Shown here: piece by piece, positions 25,145 to 32,538 of the stretch
Layout of the letters: the number at the start of each line of letters is the position of its first letter
How positions within the stretch are numbered: the stretch's first letter is position 1
Assembly: GCA_015272325.1 (NCBI GenBank)
Contig: JACYLU010000014.1
Coordinates: 62,001 to 126,000, forward strand
Length of the DNA stretch: 64,000 bases
Direction of reading: 5' to 3'
Source: Synechococcales cyanobacterium C42_A2020_086
GTDB lineage: Bacteria > Cyanobacteriota > Cyanobacteriia > Elainellales > Elainellaceae
The notes under the pieces: model-generated
Seen by the model: the letters and a program-made list of their open reading frames with translations, nothing else
What the model was told of the DNA's origin: nothing
Database searches by the model: none
Made by a program: the position numbers and the translations under genes

Positions 25145-27631
25145 TCAAGAGTTGGCCGGTGTCAGTACCGTTGCCAGAACGTCCTCCGCTGCACTGACTG
25201 GAACAAACTGAAGCTGATTACGAACCTCTTCGGGTACATCTTCTAGATCGGGTTCGTTGCGCTGAGGAAGAATCACTGTTTTAATGCCTGCCCGGTAGGC
25301 GGCCAACACCTTTTCCCGAATTCCACCCACTGGCAGCACTTTGCCCCGCAGCGTAATTTCTCCGGTCATGGCCACATCATTGCGGACCAAGCGACCCGAG
25401 GCAAGGGAGGCGATCGCCGTCATCATGGTGACTCCAGCAGAAGGGCCGTCCTTGGGCGTAGCACCAGCTGGCACATGCACATGCACCACTTTGCCCACAA
25501 ACACTTTGGGATCAATGCCTAATTTTTCTGCATTAGATCGCACATAGGACAGGGCTGCTTGGGCAGACTCCCGCATCACATCCCCCAGCATGCCGGTTAA
25601 TACCAACTGTTCGGCACGTCCGGGCATCATGGTGGCTTCCACAAACAACACATCGCCGCCAGCAGGCGTCCAGGCTAAACCTGTGGCAATGCCGGGGCGA
25701 TCGATCCGTTCCACCGCTTCATCGAGAAAGCGCGGGCGACGCAGGTAATCGGGAATTTGCTCAGCTTCAACAGTCGTGGCGGTCAGTTTTCCTTCCGCAA
25801 CTTGGCGGGCGACTTTGCGCACCACCGCACCAATTTCTCGCTCTAGGCTGCGAACCCCCGCTTCACGGGTATATTCCCGAATAATTCGCTGCAGCGCCGT
25901 ATCGGTAATGGTGAGTTCTTCTGGCTTGAGTCCGTTGGCGCGGAGCTGTTTAGGCAGCAGATAGCGACGAGCAATATGTAACTTCTCCAGTTCGGTATAG
26001 CCGGAGAGACTCAAGATTTCCATGCGATCCAATAAGGGAGAAGGAATGGTTTCGACGGTATTGGCGGTGCAGATAAACAAGACCCTCGATAAATCAAAAG
26101 GTACGCCCAGATACGTGTCTACAAAGGTATGATTTTGGGCTGGATCGAGGACTTCCAGAAGAGCTGCTGCCGGATCGCCTTGAAAACTTCTCCCCAGCTT
26201 ATCCACTTCATCCAGCATAAAGACCGGATCGGCTGTTTCTGCCCGCCGCAGAGCTTGAATTAAGCGTCCCGGTAACGCCCCAATGTAGGTGCGACGATGA
26301 CCGCGAATCTCGGCTTCATCGCTCACTCCACCCAAACTAATCCGCACAAACTTGCGTCCCATGGCTCGGGCGATTGACTGTCCCAGAGAGGTTTTACCCA
26401 CACCCGGTGGTCCGATAAAGCACAAAATCGGTTCGCGGCGAATCTCTTCTAGCAGGGGTTCTGGAGGCTTTTGGGAGGCAGGTGTCTCTTCCGGGGCACT
26501 CTCCTGAGACGACTGGGCAGAGGATTGTTCTCCCAGAACGGCAGTACGTTCACTCTTGAGTTTTTTAACCGCCAGATATTCCAGAATCCGATCTTTGATC
26601 TTCTCCAGATCGTAATGATCTTCATCCAACACCTGACGGGCATATCCCAGGTCGATCGCCTCCCCCGTGGTTGCATTCCAGGGCAGACTCACCATCCAGT
26701 CCAGATAGGTGCGAATCATGCCGTATTCCGGCGAAATGGCCGGTAACCGTTCCAGGCGCGACAATTCGCGGAAGGCCTCTTTACGGGCTTCTTCGGGGAG
26801 CTGAGCGGCTTCCAGTTGATTGCGTAATTCTTGAATTTCTGCCTGTTCTGCGTCTTCTTCGCCCAGTTCGCGCTGAATCGATTTTAATTGTTCACGGAGG
26901 ATGTATTCCCGCTGCGTTTTAGAGATTTTCTCCTGAGCATCAGAGGCAATTTGCTGCTGCAATTCCCGCACAGCTAGTTCTTGTTGGACAATCTCAATTA
27001 GCCGCTGGAGTTTATTGTCCACGGCATCCATCTCCAGGATTTCTTGCCGCACAGGGGTTTCCATTGGAGTCATCGCCGCCACTAGGTAGGCAAACATGCG
27101 GGGGTCGCCAATGTTTTCACCAGCGGCAGCCAATTCATTGGGAATGTCTTCGGTGAGGGGCACTAGTTTGCGAAACAATTCACCTAATGTGCGGCGCAAA
27201 GCTTCCAGTTCCGTGCTGACTGTCGTCTGCTCCGGAGCTGTTGCAATTCGCGCTACCAGGAAGGGTTCGATTTGCAGAAAGTCAAAGATACGAATGCGCT
27301 CCAGTCCTTGAACCACGAGTTGGAGGGTGCCATCCGGCAAACGCAACAGTCGGTGAATAATAGCGGCTGTACCCACGCGGTAGATGTCATCTGGTCCGGC
27401 GGGCCGTGCCTCTGGATGACGCTGCGCCACCAGCGCCAATAGCCGATTGGTGCGCATGACTTCGTCTACCAGCTTGACCGATCGTTCTTGCCCTACCACA
27501 ATGGGAGCCACTGCCATCGGAACAATTACCGTGTTGATTAGAGGCAAAACAGGCAGGGCATCCGGGATTTGTGGAATATTTTGAACATCCATTTCGGGAC
27601 TCTGGTTTCCACTGAGGGGAGTGTTGGTCAT
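25145..27631 (-). CDS. lon: ATP-dependent protease Lon
   Basis: A LonA-type AAA+ protease of about 828 residues that degrades misfolded and regulatory proteins in the cytoplasm. The N-terminal LAN domain covers about 20-215, a coiled-coil linker follows, then the AAA module with GPPGVGKTS and the Walker [10 protein letters not shown]. The C-terminal Ser-Lys protease domain has [10 protein letters not shown]. Between the linker and the AAA module there is a Ser/Glu/Pro-rich insertion (about residues 375-400). The ATG at 27631 is 3 nt after the hsp20 stop, and a GTG at 27637 would overlap it, so translation is probably coupled. LonA is not known from the model strain Synechocystis, which makes its place here notable. 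Confidence 0.95.
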
Positions 27632-27633
27632 AA

Positions 27634-28041
27634 TCACACCTCCACTTTGGGTAGGATGACATACAGGAAACCCCGGTCGTAACGAGCTTGGATGCGGTCG
27701 CGCTCAATCGGCTGCTGAAGGGGTACTTCTAGGCGAAAGGCACCATAGTGAATGTTAACGGCGTGGTATAGTCCGTCACCTTCAAAACTCTCCCAAGGGC
27801 GTACCCCCTGAATCACCAAGGCGTTTTCATAGAGAGAAATCTCAAAATCCTCTTCTGTCATGCCAGCGACTTCAACTTTCACAATTAGGGCGGTGGAAGT
27901 TTCATAGAGATCGGCAGCGGGTTGCCATTGCGGATAGGCAAAGCTGGACTGAAGCTGACCTTCCCAAAAGTTGGATTGAGAAGGAGCACCTATGCCAGAA
28001 AAAACACCCGTGTAACGGTAACTAAATCGACGGTAGCGCAT
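27634..28041 (-). CDS. Hsp20/alpha-crystallin family small heat-shock protein
   Basis: An ATP-independent chaperone that holds unfolding proteins. About 135 residues from the ATG at 28041. The frame can be read from a TTG at 28086, but with no ribosome-binding site. The alpha-crystallin domain runs from about 45 to the end: PAADLYETSTALIVKVEVAGM, then the GVRP strand and AFRLEVPLQQPIERDRI and RYDRGFLYVILPKVEV. The C-terminal tail lacks the usual I-X-I/V extension, so oligomer assembly may differ. First gene of the hsp20-lon-marC unit, joining a holdase with a protease. Confidence 0.9.
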   Translation of the reverse strand: MRYRRFSYRYTGVFSGIGAPSQSNFWEGQLQSSFAYPQWQPAADLYETSTALIVKVEVAGMTEEDFEISLYENALVIQGVRPWESFEGDGLYHAVNIHYGAFRLEVPLQQPIERDRIQARYDRGFLYVILPKVEV

Positions 28042-28312
28042 AAATTTTGAAGGTTGTCTTTTGATAATTGTCTCTTCCCTAGGCAATGATAAGGGATATG
28101 ACTAAAGCTTCAACAGAAGTATTTTAGGCGTGCAATGCTTGGCTGGCTGCTCATAAATCCTGGTTGCTGCCGTATTTAGTTTCTGGATTGGCATCAGTCA
28201 CCAGAGATCGGAAATTTGCCTAGATCAGGATTTCTCTCTAACTGTATTTCCCAGGAGACGCTCGTAGGGTTACATTTCGCTCGTTAGTCCGATTAATCCA
28301 AGTTTCATAACG

Positions 28313-28810
28313 TTAGACTTTCCACAGAATCGGCAAGATTCCTCCTGCTGTTGCGCTGAGCGTACAGACAATCGCTAGAAGCCAAAAGATCTGTGAGTGA
28401 CGCCATCCGGTTTGGCGTAGACGGTTAATCAGATGAGATAGGCTAACATCGAGCAAAAAAACACCCATCCAACTGAGGGCGATCGCCACCGCCCACCCAT
28501 AGATGCCACTCTCCGTTAGGGCACCAACCAGAATCCATGTAGCGCTAAACGTAAGCGATAATAAACCCGTCCAAACTAACAACCCTGCGAGCCAACAGTA
28601 GTGTACCCCTACCGTAACTAGAATCAGCAAAACTGTACCAAGGGGAGAATGCTGTGGCAATGCCAGCCAGCCCAAACCACCAAAGATAAGTGCCAGCAAA
28701 CCCAATGCTAGAAATTCACTCAACCACGAATGTAATGAAGAAGACGAGGATGCAATCGAACGATGATTAGTTGAATTAGTTTGTAAAGAATCTGAGATTT
28801 TGCTAATCAT
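28313..28810 (-). CDS. small polytopic membrane protein, unknown
   Basis: A 165-residue protein with a Ser-rich hydrophilic N terminus (about 1-28) followed by four or five hydrophobic segments. I recognise no family. It is 44 nt after the CBS-domain gene on the same strand, so it is likely co-transcribed with it. That pairing suggests a stress-linked membrane role, but no motif supports a specific one. ATG at 28810. Confidence 0.6.
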   Translation of the reverse strand: MISKISDSLQTNSTNHRSIASSSSSLHSWLSEFLALGLLALIFGGLGWLALPQHSPLGTVLLILVTVGVHYCWLAGLLVWTGLLSLTFSATWILVGALTESGIYGWAVAIALSWMGVFLLDVSLSHLINRLRQTGWRHSQIFWLLAIVCTLSATAGGILPILWKV

Positions 28811-28854: not shown

Positions 28855-29325
28855 TCAAGTTGATTTTAATGCATGTAGCAAATCGTCCCGTGTAATGATT
28901 CCAACTAGGACACCTGCTTCATCCACCACAGGCAAACGATTCACTCGCTTTTCCAACATCAAATCAGCCGCCTGGGAGATGGGAGCATCTGGGGCAATCG
29001 TGACCGGGTTAGGTGTCATTACATCTTGTACCAGAACTCCTAAACTTTTCTTCAACTGCTGTACAAAGTGATCGAGCGGTTCGAGATAAATAATTCCGCC
29101 TAAAAACGAGAGATACAAAGGTAGGCGAATGGGACGCTCTTTAAATAGCAAGTCTGCTTCTGAAACGACACCGACCACCTTCCCTGTTTCATCAACCACA
29201 GGAAGCCCGCTGATGTGTTTTTCTTCAAGACATTGCAGAACGGTTTCCACTGAATCGGTGGGTTTGACAGTCACCGGGTCAGTCGTCATAAAATCCTTGA
29301 CTTGGCGCGTTTCAGTCAGCATCAT
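28855..29325 (-). CDS. two-CBS-domain protein
   Basis: A 156-residue protein built almost wholly of two CBS domains (about residues 8-62 and 98-155). CBS pairs bind adenosine nucleotides and act as energy sensors. The repeats show DFMTTDPVTVKPTDSVETVL with GLPVVDETGKVVGVVSEADLL, and DVMTPNPVTIAPDAPI with RLPVVDEAGVLVGIITRDDLL. The linker between them (about 63-97) is hydrophobic. A similar stand-alone CBS protein (Hrp1) belongs to the mycobacterial dormancy regulon. Flanked by the HPF-sigma gene (101 nt upstream) and a membrane protein gene. Confidence 0.92.
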   Translation of the reverse strand: MMLTETRQVKDFMTTDPVTVKPTDSVETVLQCLEEKHISGLPVVDETGKVVGVVSEADLLFKERPIRLPLYLSFLGGIIYLEPLDHFVQQLKKSLGVLVQDVMTPNPVTIAPDAPISQAADLMLEKRVNRLPVVDEAGVLVGIITRDDLLHALKST

Positions 29326-29426: not shown

Positions 29427-30449
29427 CTAGGTTTGACGTTGATAGACCTGTTGCCACAGCTGATCTTTGAGGAAAGTCTGTGCAGTTTCAATATCTGCAC
29501 GCACCTCTGTTGAGCTTCGTTGTTGCAGCATGGCAATTTCCTCAACCTCCCATCCTTCCAAGAGGTAGAGCATCAAAGCGCGACGTTGCAGTTTGGGCAG
29601 CTTCGATAATTGGGCAAACAACCATCGCTCCTTTTCTTCAAGGCTATAGGCATCCCAAGGCTCTTCAACTTCGTGTTGGGGGAGGATGTCTTCTAAGGTC
29701 AACGAGTCTAAGTCGCCCCAAAACGGCTCATTGTCGAGAATCCAGCCGCTTGCTACACGAAAACGCGGATCGTCTTCTGGGATTTCAGTCTCTAGAGAAA
29801 TGGCAGGAATTGCCTTAGCCTCTCGCTCATCGATAATTTCATGCATCAGCCCCCCGATCCACTGATCGAGGGGTTGCTGAGGGGGACGTTGCTGGAAACG
29901 TTCCCAAGCCCGGAGAATCGCTTCATCCAGCAGATCGGATACCGTCATTTCGTCAGAGGAAAAATTGCCTTCTAGCTGAGCAAAAATTAATTCCCGCCGG
30001 GCATGATTTCGTAAGTTACGTAGTATAGGACGCAATAAATCAAAGAAGAATTCTCGGCGCTGTTGGCGAATATCTTGTTCTAGCAATTCCAGGGCAGTTG
30101 CAACATCTGTTTGCTGTTGTTGTTTCTTCCGGTAGGTGCGTTCGCGCCGCAGTTGTCCTTTGTGACGACGAATGTCTTCTGCCAGGATATCGATGACTTC
30201 GTCAATCGCGGCTTGATACGTCTCCTGCCGAGTTTTGGATTGAGCCACAAGAACCTGAGTTGGCAGCACCAGTACCACCCTTACCTGATAGCCATCAGGA
30301 TTGTGATCAACCATCAATCTTAAATGCTGTTGCTCGTCTGGGAAAGGTTTCAAAAGACGGGCAATTCGAGACTGTTTTTGCGCCCAATAGTCGCGAATTC
30401 TATCTTTGACGACATCAGGACAATTGTGAAAGATGAGGTGTTGTGGCAT
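29427..30449 (-). CDS. HPF/RaiA-like domain fused to sigma-70-like domain
   Basis: A 340-residue protein that appears to join two functions. Residues 1-105 follow the ribosome-hibernation fold (HPF/RaiA): an amphipathic helix, alternating strands (HLRLMVDHN, YQVRVVLVLP, VLVAQ), then the helix YQAAIDEVIDILAEDIRRHKGQ. After a Gln-rich hinge (106-130), residues about 135-210 resemble sigma region 2 (LLDEAILRAWERF ... QWIGGLMHEI). Residues 270-330 resemble the region 4 helix-turn-helix (LPKLQRRALMLYLLEGWEVEEIAML). An AGGAGG ribosome-binding site lies before the ATG. This suggests a link between ribosome silencing and transcription. I see both parts only by pattern. Whether it drives RNA polymerase is unknown. 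Confidence 0.7.
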   Translation of the reverse strand: MPQHLIFHNCPDVVKDRIRDYWAQKQSRIARLLKPFPDEQQHLRLMVDHNPDGYQVRVVLVLPTQVLVAQSKTRQETYQAAIDEVIDILAEDIRRHKGQLRRERTYRKKQQQQTDVATALELLEQDIRQQRREFFFDLLRPILRNLRNHARRELIFAQLEGNFSSDEMTVSDLLDEAILRAWERFQQRPPQQPLDQWIGGLMHEIIDEREAKAIPAISLETEIPEDDPRFRVASGWILDNEPFWGDLDSLTLEDILPQHEVEEPWDAYSLEEKERWLFAQLSKLPKLQRRALMLYLLEGWEVEEIAMLQQRSSTEVRADIETAQTFLKDQLWQQVYQRQT

Positions 30450-30627
30450 CGATTCCTCCTATGTATCTATCACCGTCTGGCAGCAGCAACAGGTTTGTCT
30501 TTTAGATTGAAAACCTAAAACTTTCTTGCAGCTGGCGTTCTATGACTTCAAAACCGCTATTGCTAGCATTGCAACTTTTAGCAGGGAAAACTGTGGAAAA
30601 AATGAGAAGTTTGCAAGTTCTGCAAAT

Positions 30628-32538
30628 TCAGTTCGACGCTTTGACGGTTGTAGATTCCTGCGGAGAAATCATTGCTAGTGCAGCTTGTGTCATCACTAGG
30701 TTACCCGCTAATTCCACTTGGTGGCGTTCGATGACTCCCACCACGGTACGGGGGTTATCCTTATCAACTACTGGTAGGAGGTATAGCCCTCTAGCCCCCA
30801 TACGCTCTAGGGCTGCCGCAACGGATTCATCCTCATAGGTATAGAGGACTTCTGTGGTGCAGATTTCTTCGAGCGTTTGCTGAAAGGGGATTGACTCTTT
30901 TGCTTGAGGTACTTTATCAACAGACTGGGATGATTCAGTCACAATTTGGGTGATTTTTCGGCGAATATCGGCGAGGGTGACCACTCCCACCAACTGTCCT
31001 GTATTGTTGAGAACTAAAGCCGTGTGGCATTTGTTTTGTAGCATAGTTTGTCCTGCATGAACTAATGGCATCGATGCAGGTAAGGCAAAATAATCTCGAC
31101 TCATAAGGGTAGAAACGGCAACACCTCGTAAAATTTCCATCTCGTCTTGATTTTGCAGATTCACTCCCATCTGGGGCAAATTCAATTCTCGAGTTGAGGA
31201 ATTGGACTGCATTAAATCAACAACCCAAACGCTGATCCCCACTGCTGCCATCAACGGCAAAATAATCAAGTAATTACGCGTCATCTCAAACAGCAGCAGA
31301 ATTGCAGTCAGCGGTGCTTTCACGCTTCCGGCTAAAACAGCAGCCATTCCCACTAAGGCATAGGCTGGAGGTGGTGCGATTTCAGCATGGGGCCAAAGCG
31401 TAAGCAGGAAATCGCCGTATGCACCCCCCAAGCAGGCTCCCAAAAACATGGCGGGTGCAAAAATACCCCCGACTAAACCACTACCTAAGCTAATTGCAGT
31501 GGCGATTAACTTGACGACTAGCAAGACACAGAGGAACTGTAGGGAAAATTGCTCTCCCCGAAGAATTACCTCCAACACACCATAGCCGACACCAAGAATT
31601 TGCGGCAGCTTGAGTGCCAAGAGTCCGACAATCATTCCTCCTAGCAGTGGTTGTATGATTTTGGGCAGTTTACCTAACCCGATCCAGCTGATCAGTTGAC
31701 CTTGAAAACAAGCTTGAGCGAGTCGAATAGAGCGAGTGTAGGCGATGGAAACTAAACTTGCCAGTATGCCTAAGCCAAAATAATTAAAACACTCACTCGG
31801 ACTCAGTAGTTGATAGGTGGGTAAATCAAAGGCGGGATGTGCTCCTAGAAAACTTTGGGCAATTAAGGCAGAAATGACTGCCGACAGCAGAATTAAGCTA
31901 GCCGCTGGAGTAGCAAAGCGAGTTCCCAAAATGACCTCGATTGCAAAGAAGACTCCGGCAATCGGCGCATTAAATCCGGCAGCAAATCCAGCAGCAGCAC
32001 CCGCCCCTAGTAATAAACGATAGCGTTCTCGCGAAACTTGAAAGGTTTGTCCTAGTAATCCACCCACACTCGAGCCAATTTCCACACTAGGTCCTTCTGG
32101 TCCCAAGGATGCTCCTGTTCCTAGGGATACAGCAGCAGCTAGCATTTTCACGAGGGGACGCAACGGAGAAAACGGTTGAACTCTGGTATTACTCAGCAAT
32201 GCTGCCAAGTCTTGCCCTAGTAAGGTTGGAAACCACCAACGCAAGATACCAATCAGCAAGCCGCCCAAGGTGGGGATAGTAGCGAGCGTCCAAGCTCCCC
32301 ATGTTGACAAGTAACTGAGTACCTGCGCAAATGCCAAGGTTTGCACCCAGGAAATTAAGTTTTGAAATAGAACAATTGCTAAGCCTGCCCCTCCACCAAT
32401 AATCAATGCAGAGAAGATCACCAAAACTTCTGGCGAGGGCTGCAAGCGATTCAGCAGGCTAGTGAGGCGATCGCTCAGAGAAGGGATTTTTGCTCCTAAG
32501 GATGGCAGTATTTTGGGTTGGGGAGTTGTCGCAGTCAT
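30628..32538 (-). CDS. ClC-type chloride transporter with C-terminal CBS pair
   Basis: A 636-residue membrane protein. The ClC core (about residues 40-445) has the anion-binding motifs GPEGP (146-150, gating Glu148), AGVFFAIEVIL with the internal proton Glu201, and GGIFAPAMFLGA. Both glutamates needed for H+/Cl- exchange are present, so an antiporter is more likely than a channel. The C-terminal part (about 485-625) is a CBS pair, typical of regulated ClC proteins. It lies in the stress island between the P-type ATPase and HPF-sigma genes, 178 nt before the latter. It probably helps adjust pH or membrane potential. Confidence 0.9.
   Translation of the reverse strand: MTATTPQPKILPSLGAKIPSLSDRLTSLLNRLQPSPEVLVIFSALIIGGGAGLAIVLFQNLISWVQTLAFAQVLSYLSTWGAWTLATIPTLGGLLIGILRWWFPTLLGQDLAALLSNTRVQPFSPLRPLVKMLAAAVSLGTGASLGPEGPSVEIGSSVGGLLGQTFQVSRERYRLLLGAGAAAGFAAGFNAPIAGVFFAIEVILGTRFATPAASLILLSAVISALIAQSFLGAHPAFDLPTYQLLSPSECFNYFGLGILASLVSIAYTRSIRLAQACFQGQLISWIGLGKLPKIIQPLLGGMIVGLLALKLPQILGVGYGVLEVILRGEQFSLQFLCVLLVVKLIATAISLGSGLVGGIFAPAMFLGACLGGAYGDFLLTLWPHAEIAPPPAYALVGMAAVLAGSVKAPLTAILLLFEMTRNYLIILPLMAAVGISVWVVDLMQSNSSTRELNLPQMGVNLQNQDEMEILRGVAVSTLMSRDYFALPASMPLVHAGQTMLQNKCHTALVLNNTGQLVGVVTLADIRRKITQIVTESSQSVDKVPQAKESIPFQQTLEEICTTEVLYTYEDESVAAALERMGARGLYLLPVVDKDNPRTVVGVIERHQVELAGNLVMTQAALAMISPQESTTVKASN

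Follow-up and report, generated by a model that had tools for sequence, protein, structure and literature searches.

A gene in the window, by which we mean the whole 64,000-nucleotide stretch of cyanobacterial DNA analysed here, encodes a real fusion of an HPF/RaiA ribosome-hibernation domain (residues 1-108) with a sigma2-sigma4 unit (residues 127-338), as confirmed by profile searches, predicted structure and purifying selection. The architecture, the family and the link to resistance islands are all firm, and homology firmly points to the fusion being orf11, the hypothetical gene located between hdeD and trx in the transmissible heat-resistance locus (tLST/LHR) known from E. coli, Klebsiella and other bacteria. 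The analysis thus offers a testable identity for orf11, a core gene, so far without explanation, of a mobile locus that matters in the clinic and in food. As for function, the explanation that we favor, with a probability of about 0.4, is that of an HPF-type hibernation protein equipped with a sigma mimic for docking on the transcription machinery, and not that of a promoter-reading sigma factor.

The open reading frame singled out by the first-pass annotation is present and lies on the minus strand, a detail which that annotation lacked, and the strong AGGAGG ribosome-binding site that it described is found at the expected place. The gene and its parts are as follows:

29427..30449, minus strand: HPF-sigma-like fusion gene, 340 aa (open reading frame with ribosome-binding site, Pfam and NCBIfam matches, 88% identical Fischerella orthologs)
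30126..30449, minus strand: HPF/RaiA domain, residues 1-108 (Pfam, AlphaFold model, fold search, charge count)
29814..30071, minus strand: sigma region 2-like helices, residues 127-212 (NCBIfam, fold search, charge count)
29655..29813, minus strand: linker, residues 213-265 (conserved family motif ending in LxLED; lowest dN/dS, 0.02)
29436..29654, minus strand: sigma region 4-like helix-turn-helix, residues 266-338 (recognition helix net negative)
30455..30460, minus strand: AGGAGG ribosome-binding site (Shine-Dalgarno), 5 nt upstream of the ATG

No RNA element or repeat was found near the gene, and a promoter and terminator scan around it yielded scores no better than those of shuffled sequences.

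Both halves of the protein are recognized by sequence profiles. Pfam Ribosomal_S30AE matches residues 14-101 (E=8.3e-8, 33.3 bits, curated cut-off 23.7) and Sigma70_r4_2 matches residues 277-318 (E=1.8e-6, 27.9 bits, cut-off 25.7), but sigma region 2 is missed by Pfam alone. This region is nonetheless supported by the NCBIfam sigma70-ECF profile, since its match on residues 147-331 spans both sigma regions (E=1.5e-10). In the hmmscan of the window protein this match falls just under the cut-off (41.0 bits against 42.9), which is exceeded in the genome search (46.1 bits), in the ortholog of cyanobacterium G381 (43.3) and in a Shinella relative (51.0). Moreover, a profile built from 11 family members matches both PDB sigma factors (E=1.2e-12) and HPF (E=4.4e-8). 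The structural evidence agrees with this picture. In an AlphaFold2 model of moderate confidence (4-sequence alignment, mean pLDDT 69), with folds ranked by VIA-align, residues 1-108 adopt the HPF fold (Vibrio HPF 4hei, Z 12.0, rmsd 2.1, 92 aligned) and residues 127-338 the sigma2-sigma4 fold, located at 129-335 in the model (RpoE 5uxx, Z 14.1, rmsd 3.2, 157 aligned; ECF sigma 7qh5, Z 12.0, rmsd 3.9, 165 aligned). The model of an alpha-type relative from an IMG/VR contig (L025; pLDDT 56) gives the same assignments for its HPF part (4hei, Z 13.9, rmsd 1.6, 92 aligned) and its sigma part (5uxx, Z 15.4, rmsd 3.0, 159 aligned). The HPF pattern proposed for residues 1-105 and the sigma region 2 and 4 patterns proposed downstream of it are thereby borne out, and the recommended structure prediction and fold search place both halves in the expected folds.

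The label of sigma-70-like domain, on the other hand, holds for the fold but is doubtful if taken to mean a sigma factor. We compared 16 family members with three ECF factors from the same genome and, although the few reference sigma factors available limit the comparison, the 21-residue sigma4.2 recognition helix has a mean net charge of -2.0 in the family (n=16) versus +5 in the three ECF factors; six other sigma factors of the genome range from +2 to +6, the true ECF CnrH has +4 and the sigma-like domains of PhyR have -5 and -4. Region 2.3-2.4 follows suit, with a family mean of -2.1 against +2 to +3 in the own-genome ECF factors and an exception (+3) in the orf11-type copy of cyanobacterium G443. 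The window protein itself, with a net charge of -2 in the recognition helix and -3 in the acidic regions 2.3-2.4, lacks the basic faces of a sigma factor. The promoter-contact faces of sigma2 and sigma4 are hence charge-reversed, as in PhyR, and this is what renders the name doubtful. Conversely, the C-terminal tail of HPF helix 2 is basic in all 16 members (+3 to +8, compared to +2 to +8 in canonical HPFs), reaching +8 in the window protein. Judged from these residues, the presumed ribosome-facing charge is kept and the promoter-facing charge is lost.

The resemblance to PhyR suggests a partner switch in which the sigma mimic would titrate an anti-sigma factor and free a stress sigma factor, the signal being occupancy of the ribosome by the HPF domain. 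The two proteins share the sigma2-sigma4 fold and an acidic recognition helix, weak Pfam matches to PhyR sigma-like domains are obtained, and the top structural match is an RpoE structure in complex with the anti-sigma NepR, with PhyR-NepR complexes scoring at Z ~10-11. PhyR, however, possesses a receiver domain and binds NepR, whereas the fusion has an HPF domain and, by Pfam scan, no receiver, and in the annotated islands inspected no neighboring gene bears an anti-sigma annotation. In addition, the NepR-PhyR-EcfG system is described for alphaproteobacteria (PMC8103513), and the fusion occurs also in cyanobacteria and Enterobacteriaceae. We consider this switch unlikely.

Equally improbable, in our estimate, is a working ECF-type sigma factor with the HPF domain as a fused sensor, comparable to the C-terminal extensions of ECF41/ECF42; the factor would be set free for the transcription of stress genes once ribosomes fall idle. 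The sigma2-sigma4 unit is complete, several members exceed the curated sigma70-ECF cut-off, and among PDB sigma sequences the nearest is that of SigG1, a factor which bears an additional domain and whose linker is similar to, and aligns with, that of the fusion. ECF41/ECF42 and SigG1-type factors likewise combine sigma2-sigma4 and an additional domain in one chain, but their extensions are C-terminal and they read promoters, whereas the fusion carries an N-terminal ribosome-binding fold and no basic DNA faces. Nearly all 16 members have acidic or neutral residues in place of the basic ones of a typical -35 helix and region 2.3-2.4, and the region-2.4 motif Asn found in an ECF factor of the same genome (L048) is kept in none of them.

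Less probable still is a plain hibernation factor whose sigma-like half is a mere scaffold, be it spacer or dimerizer, with no transcription partner: long HPFs are known to have a dimerization domain in that position, and, as the archaeal HibA illustrates, an HPF domain can have unrelated partners, which perhaps just fill vacant ribosomal sites (PMC13324472), but sigma4 and the linker are the slowest-evolving parts of the gene and a sigma2.2 residue is invariant, which suggests a specific partner. The dN/dS ratio is 0.10 for the whole gene, 0.18 for HPF, 0.05 for sigma4 and 0.02 for the linker; the stronger purifying selection on sigma4 and linker than on HPF indicates that the sigma half is in use, and not decaying.

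The favored hibernation protein with a docking sigma mimic would operate as follows. Long HPFs carry a C-terminal dimerization domain, the place of which would here be taken by a sigma2-sigma4 module that functions as a sigma mimic. In cells stressed by heat, oxidants or starvation, the HPF domain would bind idle ribosomes at the mRNA/decoding site of the 30S subunit, and the sigma-like half would attach to the transcription machinery; its most likely target would be core RNA polymerase, contacted by means of the sigma2.2-like helix (motif DLLDE at residues 172-176 of the window protein, with the D of the sigma2.2 motif invariant in 16/16 members). Polymerase might then be held or diverted at silenced ribosomes, or the state of the ribosome might be reported to polymerase; the outcome would be a joint quieting of translation and transcription. 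Ribosome contact, RNA polymerase as partner and the direction of the effect are all part of what we infer. Core RNA polymerase seems the better candidate for the docking partner and an anti-sigma a possible one, since the broad phylum range and the lack of an adjacent annotated anti-sigma gene favor a universal partner. Some findings count against this explanation. The Q-to-D change in sigma2.2 could weaken core binding, as in PhyR, of which both the promoter and core-RNAP regions have been described as degenerate (PMC8103513). The seven tLST genes required for heat or chlorine resistance do not include orf11, and its deletion in E. coli MG1655 lacZ::LHR (K-12) did not lower either resistance (PMC8407380); orf11 is disrupted in LHR2 (PMC5383660), and the gene survives only as a remnant in an otherwise retained cyanobacterial island (G002, see below). 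The HPF-sigma gene is therefore dispensable under the conditions tested. More generally, we would lay even odds on the wider proposal of a mobile, cross-phylum family, borne as orf11 in heat-resistance islands, in which sigma mimicry would tie ribosome hibernation to the control of transcription, with the HPF half on the ribosome and the sigma-like half capturing RNA polymerase or an anti-sigma factor. Such a family would suggest that ribosome hibernation and the transcription machinery are linked directly by a protein; their coordination has so far been known mainly at the level of gene regulation, as with Rsd and RMF (according to the available text of PMC6904343).

The identification with orf11 stems from a chain of homologs. 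In E. coli O18ac:H14 the homolog is flanked by hdeD-GI and trx-GI and so occupies the orf11 position. The window protein and E. coli orf11 have an identity of only 10% in the N-terminal half and 23% in the C-terminal half, and a direct similarity of the orf11 N-terminus to HPF is undetectable by either profile comparison or Pfam. Each of the two proteins is, however, matched over most of its length by Shinella and other alpha- and beta-type members, and full-length homology to the tLST orf11 family is established through these. When N-terminal domains alone are compared with hhalign, the orf11 group is joined to the beta group (96.0%, E=3.8e-9), which provides its only connection to HPF, the beta group to the cyanobacterial group (95.1%, E=3.2e-8) and the latter to canonical cyanobacterial HPFs (96.2%, E=2.5e-9), against at most 0.4% in swapped-half controls. 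Profile comparison likewise confirms the relation of the C-terminal half to orf11, and alpha-group members exceed the Pfam S30AE cut-off on their own or fall just short of it (24.0 for Shinella, cut-off 23.7). Matches to E. coli orf11, full-length relatives of the fusion, occur in 301 plasmid records and in 152 of 5426 complete E. coli genomes (2.8%) and, among the matches listed, are nearly always annotated as hypothetical protein, as is the matching ORF of a P. aeruginosa island (PMC7685784). A related island is said in one review to contain a "sigma 24 like" gene, so the sigma resemblance had already been noticed in part.

The first-pass annotation had stated that no characterized HPF-sigma protein was known. 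Indeed, a search outside subscription journals and supplements found no paper describing the fusion, but the fusion is widespread and coincides with orf11 of known heat-resistance islands. The available text of the Balon paper (PMC10901736) makes no mention of a single-chain RaiA/HPF-sigma fusion; S30AE is not named in the available main text of PMC11119718, and its Table S3, with 29 accessory domains on cyanobacterial sigma factors, may list it. Fusions involving HPF are in themselves nothing new, given the existence of archaeal HPF-CBS fusions (HibA, PMC13324472). HibA also joins HPF/RaiA to another module, but its HPF domain is C-terminal, archaeal and fused to CBS, whereas that of the window protein is N-terminal, bacterial and paired with a sigma-like partner, the CBS protein being encoded by a neighboring gene. 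The N-terminal domain is also the same as that of long HPF/LrtA, the cyanobacterial hibernation factor, but the C-terminal domain of long HPFs is absent from the fusion in a Pfam scan to E=1, and sigma2-sigma4 stands in its place.

The gene does sit in a stress-gene island, as had been claimed, surrounded by MarC, Lon, Hsp20, CBS, ClC, P-type ATPase and Usp genes. A ClC channel, the P-type ATPase and Usp lie upstream; a CBS protein, a small membrane protein, Hsp20 and Lon follow downstream. The closest neighbors are:

30628..32538, minus strand: ClC chloride channel with CBS domains, upstream neighbor
28855..29325, minus strand: CBS-domain protein, next gene downstream (neighbor also in Fischerella and G381)
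28313..28810, minus strand: small membrane protein without a Pfam family (kept in Fischerella)
27634..28086, minus strand: Hsp20 small heat-shock protein (Pfam; related islands)
25145..27637, minus strand: Lon-type protease, overlapping the Hsp20 gene (named from sequence; 83-93% identical in related islands)

In contrast to that of E. coli, this island is not a tLST: in place of the ClpK/ClpG, FtsH, YfdX, HdeD, Trx and KefB set, its scanned ORFs encode Lon, Hsp20, CBS, ClC, P-ATPase and Usp. The Lon-Hsp20-CBS-HPF-sigma arrangement is kept in G381. In the Fischerella island, apparent 6-phosphogluconate dehydrogenase, glucose-6-phosphate dehydrogenase and alpha-amylase-like genes lie between the small membrane protein and Hsp20 (L003:8146-12382). 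A different context is seen in the 2.2-Mb genome of G443, where an M48 (HtpX-like) peptidase, the orf11-type HPF-sigma gene and a Balon-type (baeRF10) factor form a tight co-directional row (L040:8318-11508). The HPF-sigma gene lies 48 bp upstream of the Balon-family hibernation factor gene, in an apparent operon; the product of the latter matches baeRF family 10, with the MSMEG_1130 ribosome hibernation factor family below cut-off. According to the available text of PMC10901736, Balon genes usually neighbor Hsp20, HdeD, RaiA and alternative sigma70 factors. A link between HPF-sigma and Balon is thus suggested through guilt by association at one locus.

The family extends over cyanobacteria and alpha-, beta- and gamma-proteobacteria. 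Orthologs occur in Fischerella (F. muscicola and F. thermalis, both 88% identical to the window protein) and in two further cyanobacterial lineages, represented by G381, from another family (71% identity), and G443. Chance, mis-assembly and a single-genome oddity are ruled out as origins of the fusion by intact homologs in many independently sequenced genomes and plasmids, together with the dN/dS of the gene. Across 35 genomes of the window's own family the only other trace is the broken remnant in G002, where the island is whole at 74-94% identity (L029:4935-19830) and the HPF-sigma gene shows stops and a large internal deletion. This patchy spread fits horizontal island transfer with occasional loss of the gene. 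The host also encodes an ordinary HPF elsewhere in its genome (G000:C4:176717-177004, L001; a 221-aa open frame), and hence the fusion comes on top of it and does not replace it.

On plasmids, a tblastn search with the window protein returned 24 records, mostly aligned along most of its length. The homologs inspected reside mainly in islands of two kinds, one with Hsp20, FtsH, ClpG-type AAA, HdeD, Trx and cation:proton antiporters, the other with Hsp20, GroEL and DnaK. The copy on Roseomonas mucosa p3 (L012:9950-11065) is devoid of the first part of the sigma4 helix-turn-helix, through an internal deletion relative to the Caulobacter copy. A phage origin was discarded, as phage records gave no match and IMG/VR a single contig. 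That contig (L025), classed as viral, carries a tLST-like island adjoining apparent phage genes and is possibly a provirus with heat-resistance genes; named from sequence, the genes of its island are Hsp20, MarR, FtsH, ClpG-type, HPF-sigma, rhomboid, ClpP-like, Trx and an antiporter.
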